Of a stretch of DNA of 37,514 bases, positions 5,798-35,294 are shown one piece after another. The notes beneath the pieces are model-generated. The model saw nothing but the letters and a program-made list of their open reading frames with translations, was not told the DNA's origin and did no database searches. The number at the start of each line of letters is the position of its first letter. Positions within the stretch are counted from its first letter, which is position 1. The position numbers and the translations under genes are program-made. The stretch comes from Patescibacteria group bacterium. GTDB lineage: Bacteria; Patescibacteriota; Patescibacteriia; Patescibacteriales; UBA12465. The DNA is taken from contig JAQUWT010000010.1 of NCBI GenBank assembly GCA_028692765.1, positions 1 to 37,514 of the forward strand. The letters run 5' to 3'.

Positions 5798-6697
5798 ATG
5801 AAAAAAATTGTAAGTTTTTTTTGTTTCGCGTTCTTAGCTATGGCTCTGAACGGGCAGGTGACCATTATTAACTCATGGTCATCTGACATCCAAGTATCCT
5901 CTCGCACCGGCGGACCAATCATTGTCCCGCCAAATGGCTCCAAGTTGGTTTATTTTTTGCAGGTTAAACCTGAGCCTCAGGAAATTTACCTTAGCTATTC
6001 TCAGGCCGGAAGGATAAAGAAAGATAGGGTAAATATTGTAGTAACCTCAAATCTTACGGTTTATCCCGGAATGCAAAGTAGCGCCAGCACTGCTAATTCT
6101 TACCGGTATCAATCAGGTGCGAATTCGGGTGCGAATTCGGGTGCGAATGAATCAGAAAATTCAAATGCCAGGACAAAAGTGGCCTTAGTAGTTGAAAATT
6201 TGTCACAGCATCGATTTTCTACTCTAACAGTTGGCGGTCCATTTTCTGATATATCTTTGGCACCCAAAGATTCCTCTGATGTAATTTACGTCCCCATTGG
6301 CCCAAACCAATTTACCATATTAGTGGACATGGACAAAGATTCTATGTCTTCTGGTAAAAATTTTGCTCAGGCTGTAATCAAAGCAATAATTGTTAAAGGT
6401 CAGAAAAAACTCGTTATTACAGATAAGCATCTCTTAGCTACAAGCTCGGGGACGCAAAAAAGTAGATTCGTCAACGATTTTGATTTTAAACTCGTATTTG
6501 TATCCGGCCCCCCTGCTGGTGATGCTATGCGCAGAAGTAGCAAAAAGTATGAATTTAACATCGGCTTTAATAGCGTGGCTGTCCAATTCAACAAGGATGG
6601 CAAGAAGTTCCAAGCAGATTTGGAGTTTATTGTGGTCAAGGGGGAAAGAGTCATTATACTAAAGCAGGAAAATCTTAAAAATATTCAAATGATTTAG
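5798..6697 (+). CDS. Secreted hypothetical protein with signal peptide and GANS repeat linker
   Basis: N-terminus MKKIVSFFCFAFLAMALNGQ resembles a signal peptide; two beta-rich halves with matching segments (VTIINSWSSDIQVSSRTGGPI / VVENLSQHRFSTLTVGGPF) around a repeat linker. Confidence 0.8.
   Translation: MKKIVSFFCFAFLAMALNGQVTIINSWSSDIQVSSRTGGPIIVPPNGSKLVYFLQVKPEPQEIYLSYSQAGRIKKDRVNIVVTSNLTVYPGMQSSASTANSYRYQSGANSGANSGANESENSNARTKVALVVENLSQHRFSTLTVGGPFSDISLAPKDSSDVIYVPIGPNQFTILVDMDKDSMSSGKNFAQAVIKAIIVKGQKKLVITDKHLLATSSGTQKSRFVNDFDFKLVFVSGPPAGDAMRRSSKKYEFNIGFNSVAVQFNKDGKKFQADLEFIVVKGERVIILKQENLKNIQMI
6116..6148 (+). repeat. 12-bp tandem repeat (GGTGCGAATTCG x ~2.75) encoding GANS repeats
   Basis: Direct reading: ggtgcgaattcg ggtgcgaattcg ggtgcgaat. 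Confidence 0.95.
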
Positions 6698-23472: not shown

Positions 23473-24831
23473 ATGCCCAGACCGAAGGCGAATGCCAAAA
23501 ACATGCCGGCTTTTAAAAAAGCCCCAGAGAGGAGAAGTGCTAAAGCGGTGCCTCGTCTTTTAGGTATGAAAGATATCGTGCCTTCAGAATACCGCTATTT
23601 TAGCGCTGTCTCCAACAAGGCCGCCTCTTTAGCTGAACTCTATAGTTTTAATGCTATTAAGACGCCCGCGATTGAAAGCGCGGATTTGTATAAGAAATCG
23701 ACCCGGCACAATAACGATAAAGAATTATACTCTTTAGACTGTGAAAAAGGGGAAAACGGCGTCTTACGTCCAGAACTTACCCAAGGGATTTTACGGGCTT
23801 ATATTGAAAATAATTTTTCCGAACTGCCCCAACCTGTCCGCCTTTATTCTATTGGCTCAGTTTTTAGAAAAGAAAAAATGCAGACCGGACGCTATCGCGA
23901 ATCAAATCAATTTAATCTTGAAGTTATCGGTGAAGACAAGCCGATGGCCGAGGCTTTACTGATTGCCGCCGCCTATAATTTTTTTCAAGATTTGCAAGCT
24001 AATTTTCAGATTCAAATCAACAGCCTGGGTAAAGCGGATTGCCGCAAGGAATATATCGGCAAACTTAACAGCTTTTACAAGGAGAGGGGGCGTCGTTCCA
24101 AGCTCTGCAATAATTGCAAGAAATATCTGGGCAAAAATATGATGGCCTTGCTGGATTGCAAGGAAGATGCCTGCCAGCACCTATTGCACGAAGCGCCCCA
24201 GATTGCCGATTGTTTATCTGATGAAAGCCGGAATCATTTTGCCAAGGTGCTGGAATATCTAGACGAGCTCGGCATCCCCTATAACTTTAATCCTTATTTG
24301 GTGCGCGGTCTCAGTTATTATAATGATACTGTGTTTGAATTTTGGCCCCTTAATGACGAAGGTGTAGCTTCCAGCAAATTAGCTTTGGCCGGAGGCGGAC
24401 GTTATGATAATTTGGTAGAAAGCTTAGGCGGGCGTCCAACTCCGTCCGTCGGCTTAGCCATCGGCCTGGAAAGAGTTGTGGCAAAGGTAAAAGATCGCTT
24501 GACTCTGCCTAATTTTAAAGAAGAGGTAATATTTCTGGCACAGTTGGGAGACCAAGCTAAGATTAAGTCTTTGATTCTTTTTGAAGAACTGCGCCGAGCC
24601 GGCTTTAATGTCCGCCAGTCTTTTTCAACCGACAGCCTTAAGAACCAGATGGAAGAGGCTACGCGTTTAAACGCCAAGGTCAGTTTGATTTTAGGCAAGA
24701 AAGAAGTTATGGACGAAACTATTATGCTAAGAGACATGGAGTCCGGTGTTCAAGAAACGGTGGCTTTTAAGAAAATAAAAGATAAGTTAGAAAAAAAAGT
24801 AAATAGAAAGGAAGGTGTAATTTATGGCTGA
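23473..24831 (+). CDS. hisS: Histidyl-tRNA synthetase
   Basis: LLGMKDIVPSEYRY, VLRPELTQGILRAY, GRYRESNQFNLEVIGED, YLVRGLSYYNDTVFEF, AGGGRYDNLVESLGG, VGLAIGLERV. Confidence 0.92.
   Translation: MPRPKANAKNMPAFKKAPERRSAKAVPRLLGMKDIVPSEYRYFSAVSNKAASLAELYSFNAIKTPAIESADLYKKSTRHNNDKELYSLDCEKGENGVLRPELTQGILRAYIENNFSELPQPVRLYSIGSVFRKEKMQTGRYRESNQFNLEVIGEDKPMAEALLIAAAYNFFQDLQANFQIQINSLGKADCRKEYIGKLNSFYKERGRRSKLCNNCKKYLGKNMMALLDCKEDACQHLLHEAPQIADCLSDESRNHFAKVLEYLDELGIPYNFNPYLVRGLSYYNDTVFEFWPLNDEGVASSKLALAGGGRYDNLVESLGGRPTPSVGLAIGLERVVAKVKDRLTLPNFKEEVIFLAQLGDQAKIKSLILFEELRRAGFNVRQSFSTDSLKNQMEEATRLNAKVSLILGKKEVMDETIMLRDMESGVQETVAFKKIKDKLEKKVNRKEGVIYG
24808..24817 (+). promoter_or_regulatory. Shine-Dalgarno-like site of rpsU (AAGGAAGGTG)
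   Basis: aaaggaaggtgtaatttATG; 6 nt between GGTG and ATG. Confidence 0.7.
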
Positions 24832-25054
24832 TTTTAAAAGAAAACCCGGCGAAAGTTTTGAGAGTTTCTTGCGTAAATTCAAGAAAGGCTTAAAAAATAG
24901 CAAACGTCTAGAGAAAGCGCGTTCCAAGCAACACTTGGAGCCGAAGAAAACCAAAAGACAACAGAAAAAGTATGCTTTGATTAGTATCGAGACCCAGCGT
25001 AAAAAAGAATATTTGCGCAAGACCGGCAAATTGGAAGAAACTCAGAATAGATAA
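24824..25054 (+). CDS. rpsU: 30S ribosomal protein bS21
   Basis: KRKPGESFESFLRKFKKGLKNSKRL matches the bS21 N-terminal pattern; small and highly basic; overlaps the hisS end by 8 nt. Confidence 0.82.
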   Translation: MADFKRKPGESFESFLRKFKKGLKNSKRLEKARSKQHLEPKKTKRQQKKYALISIETQRKKEYLRKTGKLEETQNR

Positions 25055-25060
25055 TATTTT

Positions 25061-25093
25061 AAAAAATCACCTCAGTTAAAGGGGTGATTTTTT
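25061..25093. terminator. Bidirectional terminator between convergent rpsU and rel
   Basis: AAAAAATCACCTC agttaaa GGGGTGATTTTTT. Confidence 0.85.
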
Positions 25094-26667: not shown

Positions 26668-29340
26668 ATGCGCCGTCGATTTTTTTCTTCTTTATTATTT
26701 TTCGCGCTTATTAGCGCCGGTCTGTTATCGGTTAATTTTGTTTTTGCCCAGAATTTAGATGTCGGCGTTAACGAAATTAGCAATACCATCGCTTTAAGTG
26801 CTACCGATCCTCGTATTATCGTGGCCCGAATCATTAATATCGCCTTGTTATTTTTGGGCGTGATTGCGGTTGGCCTGATAATTTACGCCGGTTTTCTTTG
26901 GATGACCAGCGGCGGCAGCGAAGACAAAATTGACCAGGCTAAGAATATTCTCAAAAATGCCATTATCGGCCTCGTGATAATTTTATCGGCTTGGGGAATC
27001 GTCTCCTTTATAATGAGCCGTCTTTTGGGCGCTACCGGCAACGGCGGCCTTTTCAATGGTAATTCCGGCAGCAGTTCTCTAGTCGGCACCGGGGCAATGG
27101 GAGCTTGTACAGTCGAGCGCGTTTATCCTGAAGATGGACAAACCGGAGTGGCGCGCAATACTTCTCTTATAATTACATTTAAAGAACCTTTACTCCTAAC
27201 TAGTGTCTGTCAGAATGAATCAGGCGAAGCTTGTGCGTGCGACCAAACATCTTGCAATCTCATCAATCCTGCTCATATTCGGATTTTCCGGCAAGATTTT
27301 GGAGATAACTGCGGCGATGCCTCCTGTCCGGCCGATAATACTAATGTCAGCCGGGCGCACGTGAGCGCTTCCAGCGACCGGCAGACTTTAATTATTACTC
27401 CTAATGACTTTTTAGGCAGCCCTGATGGCGACACCGATTACCAAGTTAAATTTACCAGCGGTATTTTGAAAGATAATGGTGACTCAATTTTTAAAACTTG
27501 CAATACGGATTGGTTTCAGTGGGGTTTTCGGGTTAGCAATAATTTAGATTTAACCCCTCCCCAAGTTCTTAGGGGGGGCGTTTTCCCTTTGCCGGATAAC
27601 GAGAGAGACTTATACGGCCAGACTGTAGCCGCTGTTCCCGCTCAAGCCGCCGTGACCGTCAATAGTTGTCCTCAAATTTATCAAGCCCCTTCAGTTTTGG
27701 GCGTAACTCCTACAGCCGGCAATCAGAACGGCAACGCTACTCTTGCTGTTGATTTTCATCAAAATATTTCCGCTTTGACCGTGGTCACCACTTCTGAAAA
27801 TAATCAGGCGCAGTTATTCGCCGGTCAGGAATTGCTGGGCGTAGCTAATTGGAACGGCAATCAGATTATTTTTCCTGGATTTTTCCAACTTGATGTTGAC
27901 GGCCATGAGGCCGGCAATGCTTGGCAGGTAAATATTCAGCCGGAGATTTTAGCCGACCAACTCACCGTGGGCGGAGAAATATATACTTTTTCCGAAGCGA
28001 ATAGCGGCAACAATATTCCGGTTATGGGTTGCAACAATTTAAGCATTGTTGCTCTCAATATTTATGTAAAATTAAGCGGACATCCTGATATTAATGTTGA
28101 TTTAGAAGGAAATAAAGTGGCCTTGACTGCCAAAGTAGCTGGTGCGGCCGGTAATAATTTGAATTTGTCTACAACCAATAGCGACGCTCTTTCTTTGCAA
28201 GCGTTTAACGGCGGGGTCGATATGGTTAAGACCAGTGAAGTAAAAGACCGCCATGACCGTCCGATGAACTCGGTTATCCAGCTTAATTTTAATGAAGCGG
28301 TTAATCCGATGCTTGTTTCCGGTTCGGCGGACGAAACGGCTGATTATATCCGGATTGTTAACGCAGAATCTTCGGCCACTGAAGGAGAAGCTTGTAATAC
28401 TAACGCCGATTGCGCTTCCTATAAGTGTAGTGATAACGTTTGCGCCGGCAACTATCTTTCCGGTAAATTTTTGATTTCTAATGCTTATAAGACGGTTGAA
28501 TTTATTTCTGATGTTGAATGCGGGCAAAACGGCTGCGGTGAGAAGATTTATTGTTTGCCGGCCAATAGCCATTTAGCTGTTCAATTGGTAGCCGCTAATT
28601 TAAAGACCTGTAGTACTGATACAGATTGCGCCAATTTTCAGCCATTTTCTCAGTGCGCGCCCTTTTCCAATTATCTAACTTGTCAGGATGCCAATGGCAA
28701 AAATTATCCGGTAGCCAATCTTAATCAGCTTGACGGCATCGTTGACGCCGCCGCCAATTCTTTAGATGGCAATCGTGATGTTTTTGCGGACGGGCCGATT
28801 GCTTTTTATAATGAAAATGAAGCGGCTAATCTTGAGCTCAAAGACAAATACCGCTGGTCCTTTTATATTAATGACCAGATAATGTCCGACCCGCCGCAAA
28901 TTTCTTTTATTAAACCGGATAATAACAGTTTGAATGCCGACACTAAAGCTCCTGTCCAAATTAATTTTAACACTTTGATGATGAATGCCAGTCTGCGCAC
29001 CGGCAATATCTGGGTTAATAATGGCCAGAAGGATGTCGAGCATCATCTTATCAACCTGTTTACTTCTTCTCCTGCGCCTGTGGGTTATTGGATAACCGCG
29101 GAGAATCGCGATGTTTCCCCTTTGGATGGAGAACCTGATTTAACCTTTGCCTTTTTAAATCATACGGAAATGGGCTCTTCGGTAACTTATAAATCCCAAG
29201 TAGGCTCGGGGGTGAAAGATATTTATCAGAATTGTTTTAAACCAAGCGCCGGGCCCAACTGTGCGGCCAATCCCGGTAATCCCTCTTGTTGCTATGGAGT
29301 ACCGACAGATATTTTAGGGGATGACGGTAATTGCCAATAA
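26668..29340 (+). CDS. Large surface protein: signal peptide + VirB2/TrbC-like two-TM pilin module + Ig-like (Big_5-type) repeats and Cys motifs
   Basis: FVFAQNLDVGVNEISNTIALSATDPRIIVARIINIALLFLGVIAVGLIIYAGFLWMTSGGSEDKIDQAKNILKNAIIGLVIILSAWGIVSFIMSRLLG; VERVYPEDGQTGVARNTSLIITFKEPL; ISFIKPDNNSLNADTKAPVQINFN. Confidence 0.82.
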   Translation: MRRRFFSSLLFFALISAGLLSVNFVFAQNLDVGVNEISNTIALSATDPRIIVARIINIALLFLGVIAVGLIIYAGFLWMTSGGSEDKIDQAKNILKNAIIGLVIILSAWGIVSFIMSRLLGATGNGGLFNGNSGSSSLVGTGAMGACTVERVYPEDGQTGVARNTSLIITFKEPLLLTSVCQNESGEACACDQTSCNLINPAHIRIFRQDFGDNCGDASCPADNTNVSRAHVSASSDRQTLIITPNDFLGSPDGDTDYQVKFTSGILKDNGDSIFKTCNTDWFQWGFRVSNNLDLTPPQVLRGGVFPLPDNERDLYGQTVAAVPAQAAVTVNSCPQIYQAPSVLGVTPTAGNQNGNATLAVDFHQNISALTVVTTSENNQAQLFAGQELLGVANWNGNQIIFPGFFQLDVDGHEAGNAWQVNIQPEILADQLTVGGEIYTFSEANSGNNIPVMGCNNLSIVALNIYVKLSGHPDINVDLEGNKVALTAKVAGAAGNNLNLSTTNSDALSLQAFNGGVDMVKTSEVKDRHDRPMNSVIQLNFNEAVNPMLVSGSADETADYIRIVNAESSATEGEACNTNADCASYKCSDNVCAGNYLSGKFLISNAYKTVEFISDVECGQNGCGEKIYCLPANSHLAVQLVAANLKTCSTDTDCANFQPFSQCAPFSNYLTCQDANGKNYPVANLNQLDGIVDAAANSLDGNRDVFADGPIAFYNENEAANLELKDKYRWSFYINDQIMSDPPQISFIKPDNNSLNADTKAPVQINFNTLMMNASLRTGNIWVNNGQKDVEHHLINLFTSSPAPVGYWITAENRDVSPLDGEPDLTFAFLNHTEMGSSVTYKSQVGSGVKDIYQNCFKPSAGPNCAANPGNPSCCYGVPTDILGDDGNCQ

Positions 29341-29414: not shown

Positions 29415-32400
29415 ATGCTAAATAAGCCTTCTTTTGTGACTAAAAATAAAAAATTCATTATTCGGATTGCGGTGTTTCTTTTTTTGCTTAGCGCCAGTCT
29501 GATATTTGCCGGTTTGGCTAGCGCTCAAATTGATGTCGGAGTTAACGAGATTAATAATGATATTGCTTTAAGTGCGGGTGACCCGCGAACCATTGCCGCC
29601 AGGATTATTAATATAGTCATGCTTGTCTTAGGCGTATTGGCTGTCGGTTTGATTATTTACGGCGGTTTCATTTGGATGACTTCCAACGGCGAAGAAGATA
29701 AGGTGGAAAAGGCAAAGAAAATTTTAAGAAATGGTGTTATCGGTTTAGTTATTATCTTGTCAGCCTGGGGCATCGCTTCTTTTATCCTGAGCCGGCTCAT
29801 CGGCGCAACTAATGGCAACGGTTCATCCGGCTCCTGTTCCTCAGGGCAATCTTTGTCTTGCGGTTGTGGCGGGTCTATGAGCTGTATCGATGGTTCGTGG
29901 GGTCCATGTCTTGGCTCTGATTGTAATTATGGCGGCGGCCCCATCAGCTGTGACAGCAGTCCGCTTAGCGGTTGCCAAGCGGCTGATCAAATCTGTTCTG
30001 TTGATAGTTTTTGCGATGCTGATACCTGTTCCTGTCTGCCTAAAGGAGAGTTGGGCGACCCTTGCGATGCTGATACTAATACGCCAACTTGCGAAGCAGA
30101 TAATAATAAATGTGCTGAATATTTAAGTTGTGACCCGGATTCTTGTACTTGTTATGGACCGCCGGTGATTACCAATATTAGTCCTTCAGGGGGTTTTTGC
30201 AACGAAGACGGCGATTTGTCCTGTACTAGCGATGCCGACTGTTCTTTGGGTTGTAATTTTACTACGCCTAATGGCACGGCTGATAATATCGTTACTATTT
30301 CTGGTTCTAATTTTGGTCAATATGACCCTTTAACCAGCAAGGTGGTTTTCAGTACGGATGCCATCGGTCTTAATCCCACCAATCTAAATCCCGACTGTAT
30401 CGATTCTTGGACAAATACCCAGATTATTGTAGTTGTTCCTGATACGGCCATGACCGGGGCAGTGCGGGTGATTACTGCTGATAATCAAACTGATAGTACT
30501 AATGATGATAACGGGCCGATTATTGATGATTTTGTAGTTAACAGCATTGTTCGCCCCGGACTTTGCCTGCTTACCCCAGACTCTGGTCTTTTAAGCGAGC
30601 AAGTTAATTATCGCGGTGTAAATTTGTATGGAGGTGAAGCTTATTTTGGCAACTATGATAAAAATGTGCGCGGCTTAGCCTCTGATTTTATTAATCCAGC
30701 AGGACTAGCAGGCACAACCACAATCCCCAATGTCAATAAAGGTAAAATGAGCAGTTTCGTGGTGGCGAGCATTGCTGGCAATAATGAGAAAAGCAATTAT
30801 GTCCGCTTTGTAAAGCAGGCTGAACCCAATCAGGGCCCCTACATCAGTTATTTTGAGCCCAGTAGCGGCCGCGCCGGCCAATATGTTACCATTCACGGCT
30901 CCGGCTTCGGCGGTGCTCGCGGCGCCTCTAAGGTATTTTTTGGAGAAACAGAAGCTAGTTATGATTTTCCCGAGGTTTGCGCCAATTCTATCTGGAAAGA
31001 TAGTCAAGTGATTGTAAAAGTTCCCGCTGACATTAATGACGGCAGTTATGAGTTAAGGATGGAGATTAATGAAGAGGAAATTAATTCTCAAAATGCCAAT
31101 CCTAACGCCTTTACCGTTGACGCCAATTCTTCTTTAAAGACGAGTATTTGCCGTATTTTCCCGACGCGTGGCCAAATTGGTACGCCCGTAGAAATTTGGG
31201 GAGAATATTTTGGTGATAATGGCGGTAACGCTTTAACGGTTTTTTCTTATAATCGTTCGGTTAGCGGTCAAATCAGCCTTGAACAATCAGCTCAGAAATT
31301 AAATCCTAATGTGCCCGATAATGCCGTCACTGGCGCCGTGAAGGTGGTAAAAAATAGCGAATGGGGCAATGATGTTAATTTTGAAATCGGCACCTGCGTC
31401 GATAATGGTGATTGCGGCGGTGATACTTGTTGCCCTGCCGGCACTTACAAACAAGGACGTTGTGCCGCTTCTTTAGCCGAGTGTTATGTCGATATTCCCA
31501 ATTCTGTCTTTGAATGGAACTTTTCTACCGGCTTCGGCGGTGTCGAGGGCGATGACGAATTTGATAGCTGTCAAGGAATGGCTCAAGCCTTAGGGGCCTG
31601 CCAAGTAGGCGCTTTCTGCCCTAATTCTCCGGGATTGTGCTCTCCTTATGCCGGTGGAACCAAGGTTCTAGGCGCTTGCGATTCCAGTTGCGCGACTGTG
31701 CCTGCTTGTGCCGAGTTAGGAGAGGGAGCTTGTGTTTATGATAGTCAATCAGATAAGTGTTTTATCAATAATAATACTTGCTCCTTGAATTCGAATATCA
31801 GCTACACTCTTGGCCAGCAAGAATTTAGCGCCGTCCAATCTTGCAAGAGTTTCAGCCAGTTCGGCAACCAATCTCATTGGCAGATAAGCGTTGCTTCTTC
31901 GTGCCCCAATGGCTGGACGCGTATTGATGGCGGCCATTGCGTCGATAGTGTCAGCGCGACGGAATCAACTTGTTCTCTCTGCCCGGCTAATTTTAATTGC
32001 CAGCAAATAGGCGGCGAAGGGCGTTGTGTGAGCACCGAATTATGTCCCGGCAGCGCTAGTTGCAATGGAACTTCTTGTTTGGCTGATACTTCAGCGCGGT
32101 GTGATTGTTGCTGCGAAATCGGTCAGGATGCACGCGATTGCTGTTCGCCCTTAACCTGCAGCGGCACTTGCGGCAGTGATACCAGTGACGATAAGGCCGG
32201 CCTAGGCCAATGTTCCGGTTGCATGGTAGACAGTGACGGTAACGGTGCCATTTCCCCGGAAGAACAGTTGCTGTCTGACCAAGCTTGTAATTGCAGTGCT
32301 CATTCCGGTAAATATTGCGATATTTCCGTGCCGACTGGCGCCTGTGTTGATTGTAGCCGCTTGTCAGCCGAATCTTGTCTTGATCACAGCCAGTCTTGTT

Positions 32401-35294
32401 GTCTCGATTCGAAAGGGACGGCTTCTCCTGAAGATGATGTCTGTCGAGGCGGCAATGGCCAGGAGGTGAGTGCGGATCCCACCAGTCCTGATTTCGGTTA
32501 TTGCGCCTATTATGATTGTCAAAGCGCTTCTTCTACTCCTCCCGGCGATCCGAGCCTATGTGCTTCTTCAACACCTAAGGTGTTTGGATTGTTTAAGAAT
32601 CTCGAATCATGCGTTGATAACTGTGCCGCCAGTCCCGGTTTATCTTTTTGCGGTCAATTCGACGGTGATTTAGTGTCTTGCTCGGCCGCCAGCGGTTGTT
32701 GCTTTAACTTTAATGACCAGAAGTGCAGCAGTGGCGCCCAGATGCTTGGTGGTTATTGCGCCTATTATAACTGTCAGGCGGCTCCTAATGAGTCACAGTG
32801 CGACCCTAATCCTTCTCCGATAGGAACTTACAATAGCCAGACGGCTTGTGGTATCGGTTGTGCCCAGCCACCTTTGGGCGGCTTAGGTAAAGATTGCCGT
32901 AACTTAACTTCTTCTAGCGGAGATTGTAATCAGTCTTTTTGTTCTTCTCCCTTCGCTTGCCTTAATAATACCGGTAACGTCGGCCTTCCCGGAGATTGCG
33001 GCACTTGCTGCTGCCAGGTAGGCAATCCTAATTCTTGTTCAGGCATCGGTAACGGCAGTCTGGTCTGCCAGCCTAATCAGGCCCCTTGTTCCGGAGAAGA
33101 CCGCGGCTTGTGTTGCGGTTGTAGCCAGGATGCCGATTGTGGCAATGCCGATACTTTAGGCTGCGATGCGGGTGCTTGCTGCCGTACTCGACCTTCGGTG
33201 TTAAGCGAACAGCTAATACCTTCCCACGGTGCTACCGGTGTTTGTCGTAACGCCAGTATTCAAGTGCCCTTTGATCAATTGATGGATGTGGGAAGCGTGA
33301 TGGATAATATTTTGTTATTAGAAGAGCATGATTACGGTACTGGTGTTTGCCCGGCCGGTACCTTTTTGGCCTCTGCCGGCGCTGTTAATACAATTAATCA
33401 TAATTGGCTGGCCAAAGCTTACTATCAAGTTAAGTCGGCTTTCTCCTCGATTTTGGACCGCTTAGGCTTGTCTTCTCCGACAGTTTTAGCTTTAAATCAG
33501 CCGGCGCCGGATAAGCTCTATTGTTCGGTTCCGGGCAGTATTTCAGTTATCAATAATGGCAACGGCAGTGTGGCAGAATTTATTCCTAAAAAATTACTAT
33601 CCCCAGCCACCAATTATTATGTGATTGTTAAGGGCGATGAATCTTTAGATAGCAATGCCGGCGTTTTGAGTCAATGGCAGCTCGGTCTTAACGGTCCCGG
33701 ATATTTAAATTTGGGAACGAATAGTTATATTGAGGGTGAAAATATTGATTTTAATAATTTATCTTTTAAAAATTCTTATATTGCGGGATTTACTACTTTG
33801 GCTCAGCAAGGCGCCAATGCCGGCATTTGCGCTGTTGACTATGTGACCACCGAGCCGGCCTCCTATCTTTTCCAGAATACCGATAACGATATTAATGAAG
33901 ATGATTCTAACCCTCAGAGCAATAGTTTTGACACTAAAAATGACCGAGATAAATTGTTTGAAGCCGGCGCTTACAGCGCTGATGGCCAGCTTTTACATCC
34001 CAGTTCCGGCTATTATTGGGATTGGTCTTGGAATGTCGCTAAACCCAGTATCGCCAGCATTGCTTATGTCAGCGGCTTGGCGGCTAACCAAGCTTTAGTG
34101 GCGGCCGCTTCCGGCGTTTCTGATGACTCAACCATCCTCTCCGCCCAAATCGATATGAATCGGTTTTCGGCGCCTAATTGTAATAGCTCATCTTCATGTG
34201 TCTGTGCCGAGCCGGAATGCGTAAATAATTGCTGTAATGTTTATCAAGAAGGCGACGGCCTGCAAGCAGAAACTCCTCTCTTTATCTTCCTATGTAAGAA
34301 TCCTTGGCCGGCAGTTAACCCGGTAACTTTAGCTTGGTCGCCTTGGTATGATACTTGCGTTGGTGCTATCGGCAGTTGTGCCAATTATAATTATAAGTTC
34401 TATTATTGTCGTGATGCCGGTGTCGATGGCATGTCTGATGATTTGCCGGCAATGATTAATCCGGCTGTTATCCGCGGTACCAGTAATTCTTTAATTTGTA
34501 GCGAAGGGCAGACCGCTTGCTCCAGCTTAGGCGCCACTTGCGGCCCGGATAATAATTATGACGGTGTCGGCGATGGTTTCTGTATTTGGAATATTCTAAA
34601 AGAGTCATATTTTTTCAAAGAGGCCACGCCGCAGATTGGCGCGATTACCGCTGCCATTAATCAAGAAGACGGCGATTCGGTGCGTTTAGAGTGGTATGGA
34701 GCCGCCAGTATAATTTATAACGCCAACGCCAATTTGATGGGTAAATATCGCTTATATTACGCGCCAATATCTTCAGGTAATATGTCTTTTGTCGATATTA
34801 AGCCCACGGATGCTTATATGACCGGCATTTCCGGTCCGGTTTGCACGCCCTCGGCTCCAGCTAGCGGTGAAAATTATTCTTGCCATTATTTATTGAAAGG
34901 ACTGCAATCTGGTGAAAATTATCGTTTTCGTATTTCAGCCATTTCTTCGACCCAAGTGGAAAGCCCCTTATCTGAAGAGAAGACGGTGACGGTGACCGAT
35001 GCTTTAGCGCCGGCTGCCCCCCAGGGTCTAACGGCGACAATTGTTAGCGGGCAGCGTTTGCATTTTGTCTGGCAGGCCAATACTGATGATACTGCTTTTT
35101 ATCGTCTTTATCACGGCGTTAGCAGTGGCCAATACGGAGAGTCTTATGATTCCGACGAGCAGGCGACGGCGATGGATATTGATTTGCATCAATTCAGCCC
35201 CGGTATTCATTATTTTGCCTTATCCGCCTTGGACGCTTCTAATAATGAGAGCAATAAATCGGCGCAGATAACCATTGTTGTTCCCGCGCCCTAA
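29415..35294 (+). CDS. Giant (1959 aa) Cys-rich surface protein: signal peptide + VirB2/TrbC-like pilin module + four IPT/TIG-like domains + Cys-rich modules + Ig-like + two FN3-like domains
   Basis: N-terminal paralog of the 26668 product (AQIDVGVNEINNDIALSAGDPRTIAARIINIVMLVLGVLAVGLIIYGGFIWMTSNGEEDKVEKAKKILRNGVIGLVIILSAWG); VTISGSNFG, VTIHGSGFGG, VEIWGEYFG TIG cores; C-terminal APAAPQGLTATIVSGQRLHFVWQANTD. Confidence 0.85.
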   Translation: MLNKPSFVTKNKKFIIRIAVFLFLLSASLIFAGLASAQIDVGVNEINNDIALSAGDPRTIAARIINIVMLVLGVLAVGLIIYGGFIWMTSNGEEDKVEKAKKILRNGVIGLVIILSAWGIASFILSRLIGATNGNGSSGSCSSGQSLSCGCGGSMSCIDGSWGPCLGSDCNYGGGPISCDSSPLSGCQAADQICSVDSFCDADTCSCLPKGELGDPCDADTNTPTCEADNNKCAEYLSCDPDSCTCYGPPVITNISPSGGFCNEDGDLSCTSDADCSLGCNFTTPNGTADNIVTISGSNFGQYDPLTSKVVFSTDAIGLNPTNLNPDCIDSWTNTQIIVVVPDTAMTGAVRVITADNQTDSTNDDNGPIIDDFVVNSIVRPGLCLLTPDSGLLSEQVNYRGVNLYGGEAYFGNYDKNVRGLASDFINPAGLAGTTTIPNVNKGKMSSFVVASIAGNNEKSNYVRFVKQAEPNQGPYISYFEPSSGRAGQYVTIHGSGFGGARGASKVFFGETEASYDFPEVCANSIWKDSQVIVKVPADINDGSYELRMEINEEEINSQNANPNAFTVDANSSLKTSICRIFPTRGQIGTPVEIWGEYFGDNGGNALTVFSYNRSVSGQISLEQSAQKLNPNVPDNAVTGAVKVVKNSEWGNDVNFEIGTCVDNGDCGGDTCCPAGTYKQGRCAASLAECYVDIPNSVFEWNFSTGFGGVEGDDEFDSCQGMAQALGACQVGAFCPNSPGLCSPYAGGTKVLGACDSSCATVPACAELGEGACVYDSQSDKCFINNNTCSLNSNISYTLGQQEFSAVQSCKSFSQFGNQSHWQISVASSCPNGWTRIDGGHCVDSVSATESTCSLCPANFNCQQIGGEGRCVSTELCPGSASCNGTSCLADTSARCDCCCEIGQDARDCCSPLTCSGTCGSDTSDDKAGLGQCSGCMVDSDGNGAISPEEQLLSDQACNCSAHSGKYCDISVPTGACVDCSRLSAESCLDHSQSCCLDSKGTASPEDDVCRGGNGQEVSADPTSPDFGYCAYYDCQSASSTPPGDPSLCASSTPKVFGLFKNLESCVDNCAASPGLSFCGQFDGDLVSCSAASGCCFNFNDQKCSSGAQMLGGYCAYYNCQAAPNESQCDPNPSPIGTYNSQTACGIGCAQPPLGGLGKDCRNLTSSSGDCNQSFCSSPFACLNNTGNVGLPGDCGTCCCQVGNPNSCSGIGNGSLVCQPNQAPCSGEDRGLCCGCSQDADCGNADTLGCDAGACCRTRPSVLSEQLIPSHGATGVCRNASIQVPFDQLMDVGSVMDNILLLEEHDYGTGVCPAGTFLASAGAVNTINHNWLAKAYYQVKSAFSSILDRLGLSSPTVLALNQPAPDKLYCSVPGSISVINNGNGSVAEFIPKKLLSPATNYYVIVKGDESLDSNAGVLSQWQLGLNGPGYLNLGTNSYIEGENIDFNNLSFKNSYIAGFTTLAQQGANAGICAVDYVTTEPASYLFQNTDNDINEDDSNPQSNSFDTKNDRDKLFEAGAYSADGQLLHPSSGYYWDWSWNVAKPSIASIAYVSGLAANQALVAAASGVSDDSTILSAQIDMNRFSAPNCNSSSSCVCAEPECVNNCCNVYQEGDGLQAETPLFIFLCKNPWPAVNPVTLAWSPWYDTCVGAIGSCANYNYKFYYCRDAGVDGMSDDLPAMINPAVIRGTSNSLICSEGQTACSSLGATCGPDNNYDGVGDGFCIWNILKESYFFKEATPQIGAITAAINQEDGDSVRLEWYGAASIIYNANANLMGKYRLYYAPISSGNMSFVDIKPTDAYMTGISGPVCTPSAPASGENYSCHYLLKGLQSGENYRFRISAISSTQVESPLSEEKTVTVTDALAPAAPQGLTATIVSGQRLHFVWQANTDDTAFYRLYHGVSSGQYGESYDSDEQATAMDIDLHQFSPGIHYFALSALDASNNESNKSAQITIVVPAP
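32496..32768 (+). repeat. Internal direct duplication starting with ggttattgcgcctattat (85-codon period), GYCAYY(D/N)CQ Cys module
   Basis: The 18-bp string is identical at 32496-32513 and 32751-32768, offset 255 bp. Confidence 0.85.

Follow-up and report, generated by a model that had tools for sequence, protein, structure and literature searches.

The bS21, bS18 and bS6 proteins of Flavobacterium johnsoniae hide the 3' tail of 16S rRNA, and genetics and biochemistry have established that ribosomes lacking bS21 translate rpsU via an extended Shine-Dalgarno (SD) sequence (PMC9976891). Chlorobia also have mostly SD-less genes and a strong rpsU SD, their bS21 has no Y54, and a mechanism has been inferred only (PMC9976891). 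In Francisella, bS21-2 is involved in selective translation (PMC9578407; reviewed in PMC10931766).

The window analysed here, 37,514 nucleotides long, spans contig C12 entirely; it comes from the MAG of a Ca. Falkowbacteria-like member of the Patescibacteria (880 kb, 99% complete) and contains rpsU. Like F. johnsoniae (PMC9976891), this organism combines an SD-less genome with an intact CCUCC anti-SD (ASD), as read in its family, and an rpsU SD that pairs at below -13 kcal/mol over up to 13 bp and is the strongest of the ribosomal genes. Unlike F. johnsoniae, it belongs to an unrelated phylum and its helix mostly differs in shape, as described below. The Chlorobia, in a different phylum again, resemble Patescibacteria in being SD-poor, in the strong rpsU SD and in the missing Y54, a comparison made by the description in PMC9976891 only. 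The best reading of the locus is that Patescibacteria, as Flavobacterium does but with other sequence features, would autoregulate bS21 via bS21-free ribosomes. As in Francisella, the bS21 content of the proposed Patescibacteria ribosomes would select mRNAs by their leaders; Francisella has several bS21 paralogs, whereas this genome has one bS21 gene.

The rpsU locus and its product

Since the window begins inside 16S and the 3' end with the anti-SD tail is absent from the MAG, the tail was taken from relatives. It was read as GGATCACCTCCTTTCTA in about 25 genomes of the family, which show CACCTCCTTTCTA with an intact CCUCC at the 16S 3' end, and all pairing energies were calculated with RNAduplex against CACCTCCTTTCTA. 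The original prediction had placed a strong SD ahead of rpsU and had called it apparently the only one in the window. Both points were confirmed. The core, AAGGAAGGTG, occupies positions 24808-24817, six bases 5' of the ATG at 24824, and the element is really longer than was noticed (Table 1). It pairs with the 16S tail AUCACCUCCUUUCUA at -17.7 kcal/mol, an energy attained by 7.5e-5 of random genome 20-mers; the second-best start within the window reaches only -6.4 kcal/mol. In the window's genus, the SD and the first 8 nt of rpsU are covered by the last codons of hisS. Local folding of the rpsU mRNA of this genome revealed no leader hairpin hiding the SD, and the SD region is largely open. 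Hairpins resembling the rpsU terminator are present 3' of rpsU in nearly all family members. An ASD-like string in this terminator, ATCACCTC, was considered as a retroregulator and taken as chance, because no more than about 3 of 30 relatives have a similar string.

Table 1. Positions of the features of the rpsU locus (in the window) and of other genes with strong intergenic SDs (elsewhere in the genome, G000)
Feature	Position	Strand	Details
16S rRNA 5' part, truncated by contig end	1..908	-	RF00177
hisS, histidyl-tRNA synthetase	23473..24831	+	PF13393, E=8e-33
Extended SD TAGAAAGGAAGGTG	24804..24817	+	13 bp with 16S tail, one bulged A
Spacer TAATTT	24818..24823	+	six bases between SD and start codon
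rpsU, bS21, 76 aa, ATG start	24824..25054	+	Pfam PF01165 and family profile
Rho-independent-type terminator hairpin closing the hisS-rpsU unit	25061..25093	+	sequence
Histone-like KKAAPKK protein	C2:24485	-	intergenic SD, -23.2 kcal/mol
Transposase-HTH protein	C2:64219	-	intergenic SD, -23.1 kcal/mol
Small membrane protein	C17:32900	-	intergenic SD, -22.1 kcal/mol
Type IV prepilin	C15:28886	+	intergenic SD, -20.1 kcal/mol
T4SS pilin	C16:29417	-	intergenic SD, -18.1 kcal/mol

The rpsU product matches the bS21 family in Pfam with E=2.7e-4 (21 bits, below the curated cut-off of 27 bits), and the family profile A1 matches solved PDB bS21 chains with E=1.1e-5. bS21 is present in 125 of 144 genomes of the class, which we take to be ABY1. 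Named relatives of the bS21 of this genome are from Ca. Falkowbacteria first, then from Magasanik-, Kerfeld- and Komeilibacteria, and no viral bS21 relatives of this type were found. Unlike the F. johnsoniae protein, in which Tyr54 is the key residue, this bS21 lacks an aromatic at that position, the column being occupied by Ile53 in this genome and by non-aromatic residues in class members, and it has a conserved C-terminal motif, E(Y/F)L(K/R)K(I/T)GKL. A link between this motif and the SD was rejected, as the motif persists in genomes that have lost the SD.

Conservation, start codons and helix shape among relatives

Each of the 30 family loci for which the rpsU sequence was available has a strong SD, within a narrow range of -17.2 to -18.8 kcal/mol (mean -17.95, sd 0.42), and the pairing reaches the last bases of the 16S tail. 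Across the class, the rpsU SD is at or below -13 kcal/mol in 31 of 40 genomes (29 of the 35 other families that these genomes represent) and is missing at this strength in the remaining 9, so that the predicted conservation in relatives was borne out. The same threshold is passed by 4 of 382 neighbouring genes in the class regions, and these neighbours are weaker than mock windows (Mann-Whitney p=1e-5). When ORFs of any kind in the 40 class regions were screened for SDs at or below -16.5 kcal/mol, almost only rpsU emerged. In a named set of Falkow-, Magasanik-, Kerfeld- and Komeilibacteria, which overlaps the family genomes, 73 of 74 rpsU loci are at or below -13 kcal/mol. The value for other classes is 10 of 19 genomes, and the strong SD is mostly missing in at least one other deep family, f48.

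Unlike in F. johnsoniae, rpsU in Patescibacteria frequently starts with GTG, CTG or TTG. The class genes with a strong SD use 17 GTG, 4 CTG, 1 TTG and 9 ATG, so that 22 of 31 starts are non-ATG, compared to none of the nine rpsU genes without a strong SD, all of which use ATG (Fisher p=1.8e-4), and to 16% of neighbour genes (p=1e-7). The start picker gives slight weight to SD energy, and firmer evidence for the weak starts is therefore the lack of any alternative in-frame ATG ahead of the conserved GE(S/T) motif in 21 of the 22 non-ATG genes. CTG is a very rare bacterial start codon; rpsU appears to start with it in L143 and L149 and in regions L191, L210, L212 and L221.

The Bacteroidota type of rpsU helix consists of 9-13 consecutive bp. 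In contrast, exactly one mRNA base and no rRNA base is unpaired in 22 of 30 family helices and 19 of 31 class helices, counts that are inflated by shared ancestry. A one-base bulge occurred in 12% of random sequences sampled within the same energy band. The bulged base and its position vary (TAGAAAGGAAGGTG, TAGAAAGTGAGGTG, TAGAAAGCGAGGTG, TAGAAAGGGAGGTG), and a perfect complement of the tail would give -23.8 kcal/mol. From this we infer that the bulge reflects selection for a helix that reaches far without becoming too stable. In some leaders an anti-SD-like CACC(T) string just 5' of the SD can fold onto it (7 of 115 leaders, about 0.5 expected). These SD-hiding hairpins, found in L305, L307, L312, L317, L318, L325 and L180, are mainly from Magasanik- and Kerfeldbacteria and are about 13 times commoner than in shuffled leaders.

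SD use across the genome

The SD window upstream of 659 starts genome-wide averaged -1.8 kcal/mol, compared to -2.9 for upstream and -3.2 kcal/mol for coding mock windows. SDs are therefore depleted or avoided, in agreement with the expectation that they are not in common use. Mapping of 54 E. coli proteins (ribosomal and other translation or expression genes) gave 49 orthologs with a mean of -2.1 kcal/mol; in E. coli itself these genes have a mean of -7.2, with rpsU at -8.5. Among 50 translation-related genes of this genome, rpsU alone has a strong SD and tuf is next at -8.4 kcal/mol; no other ribosomal gene examined in this set has one. General SD use or high expression was thus rejected as the cause of the rpsU SD, since the ribosomal and tuf genes lack a strong SD.

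Because the 659 starts came from our own coding-potential caller, which overlooks small genes, a further scan took in every ORF of 35 aa or more. This gave 39 strong-SD matches, most of them inside other genes, and the reversed tail also gave 39. About five clear intergenic strong-SD genes besides rpsU were left, with energies of -18 to -23 kcal/mol (Table 1). Thus, unlike in F. johnsoniae and other Flavobacteriales, rpsU does not stand alone in having an exceptional SD; a few non-ribosomal genes share this property. Relatives, too, have SDs at a pilin gene (L157) and a histone-like gene (L144). In the first 400 kb of a second, complete genome, G017, a part without rpsU, the leader at C1:155801 (L345) is of the same bulged extended type: TAGAAAGAGAGGTGATAAAAT-ATG, at -20.5 kcal/mol, precedes a 175-aa protein of unknown family, whose first 60 aa have no Pfam match.

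A proposed bS21-sensing switch and its alternatives

We propose that bS21 is probably autoregulated by a switch that has the extended SD as its sensor. Most mRNAs in these bacteria are translated without SD-ASD pairing. The 16S 3' tail would be poorly available when the 30S subunit is complete; on 30S subunits without bS21 it would be free to capture the long rpsU SD and initiate on rpsU, and bS21 would be restored. A GTG, CTG or TTG start would make initiation even more dependent on the SD, and the one-base bulge may keep helix stability near -17 to -20 kcal/mol rather than at the value of the perfect complement, such that the ASD is selected and release is still possible. The long rpsU SD with its often weak start suggests that a lack of bS21 is sensed by the ribosomes without it, which then produce more of the protein. 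A conditional switch would require just such a combination of SD dependence and weak start as class members have, and the weak starts, the conserved bulge and the SD-less state of the other ribosomal genes fit control of translation through SD-ASD pairing. An analogous or convergent bS21-sensing control had been suggested originally, and this interpretation is supported in part. The SD-poor genome and the conserved rpsU SD speak for it, and the non-aromatic Tyr54 counterpart, the other strong-SD genes, and the nine class genomes and the f48 family without (or mostly without) the strong rpsU SD speak against it.

The strongest competitor is constitutive tuning, in which a strong SD and a weak start set a constant bS21 output on ordinary ribosomes without feedback. 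The five other genes with equal or stronger SDs probably encode abundant proteins, as this explanation would have it. We nevertheless consider it unlikely: the cell should need roughly as much bS21 as it does of other ribosomal proteins, whose examined genes have no SD, and coupling the SD to weak start codons reduces output instead of increasing it. As unrelated genes (histone-like, pilins) have strong SDs, ordinary ribosomes may also use SD-ASD pairing. These SDs can be read in two ways, as SD function on ordinary ribosomes or as a small regulon. In the second, unlikely version, a bS21-dependent ribosome switch would govern, besides rpsU, a small regulon of SD-bearing genes (those for type IV and T4SS pilins and the histone-like protein), bS21-less ribosomes would favour surface appendages and nucleoid proteins, and the bulged SD would have evolved independently of Bacteroidota.

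Other ribosomal proteins repress by binding their own mRNA, and bS21 is basic, so free bS21 could bind its mRNA leader. Such classical repression is improbable here, as the leader has no structure that is conserved, the local fold of this genome's mRNA leaves the SD region largely open, and the conserved element complements the ASD and does not mimic a bS21 site. It is very improbable that the SD is a now functionless relic of an ancestral SD-using state. Ordinary genes of other Patescibacteria classes do reach -10 kcal/mol or below in 32 of 340 cases, compared to 11 of 340 mock windows, but the family has kept the rpsU energy within about 0.4 kcal/mol (sd) while neighbours lost their SDs, and has kept the pairing to the last tail bases. 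A by-product of HisRS C-terminal codons or of hisS-rpsU translational coupling, to which the overlap encoding ..RKEGVIYG in the window's genus might point, can be dismissed with near certainty, because in 14 of the 30 family loci hisS terminates 2-99 nt before rpsU begins and the SD is unchanged there, independent of HisRS residues.

If the proposed switch is true, bS21 sensing via the anti-SD is not restricted to Bacteroidota, and another phylum that gave up SD-led initiation either evolved or retained it. The switch would also offer a testable reason why Patescibacteria lost their SDs, as the ribosome itself may hide the tail. The bulge and the weak start codons are sharp sequence signatures that could be dissected in surrogate hosts. 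Our literature search, which excluded subscription journals and preprints, found no description of the Patescibacteria rpsU SD.

Other genes in the window include a 299-aa ORF at 5798-6697 (+) with a Bacteroidota-looking signal peptide (MKKIVSFFCFAFLAMALNGQ..), which failed a coding model trained on this genome and is a possible transfer. Downstream of rpsU, 26668-29340 and 29415-35294 (+) encode very long proteins of 890 and 1959 aa, each with a T4SS_pilin domain close to its N terminus that is fused to Big_5, TIG and fn3-like domains; they are possibly giant pilin-adhesins.
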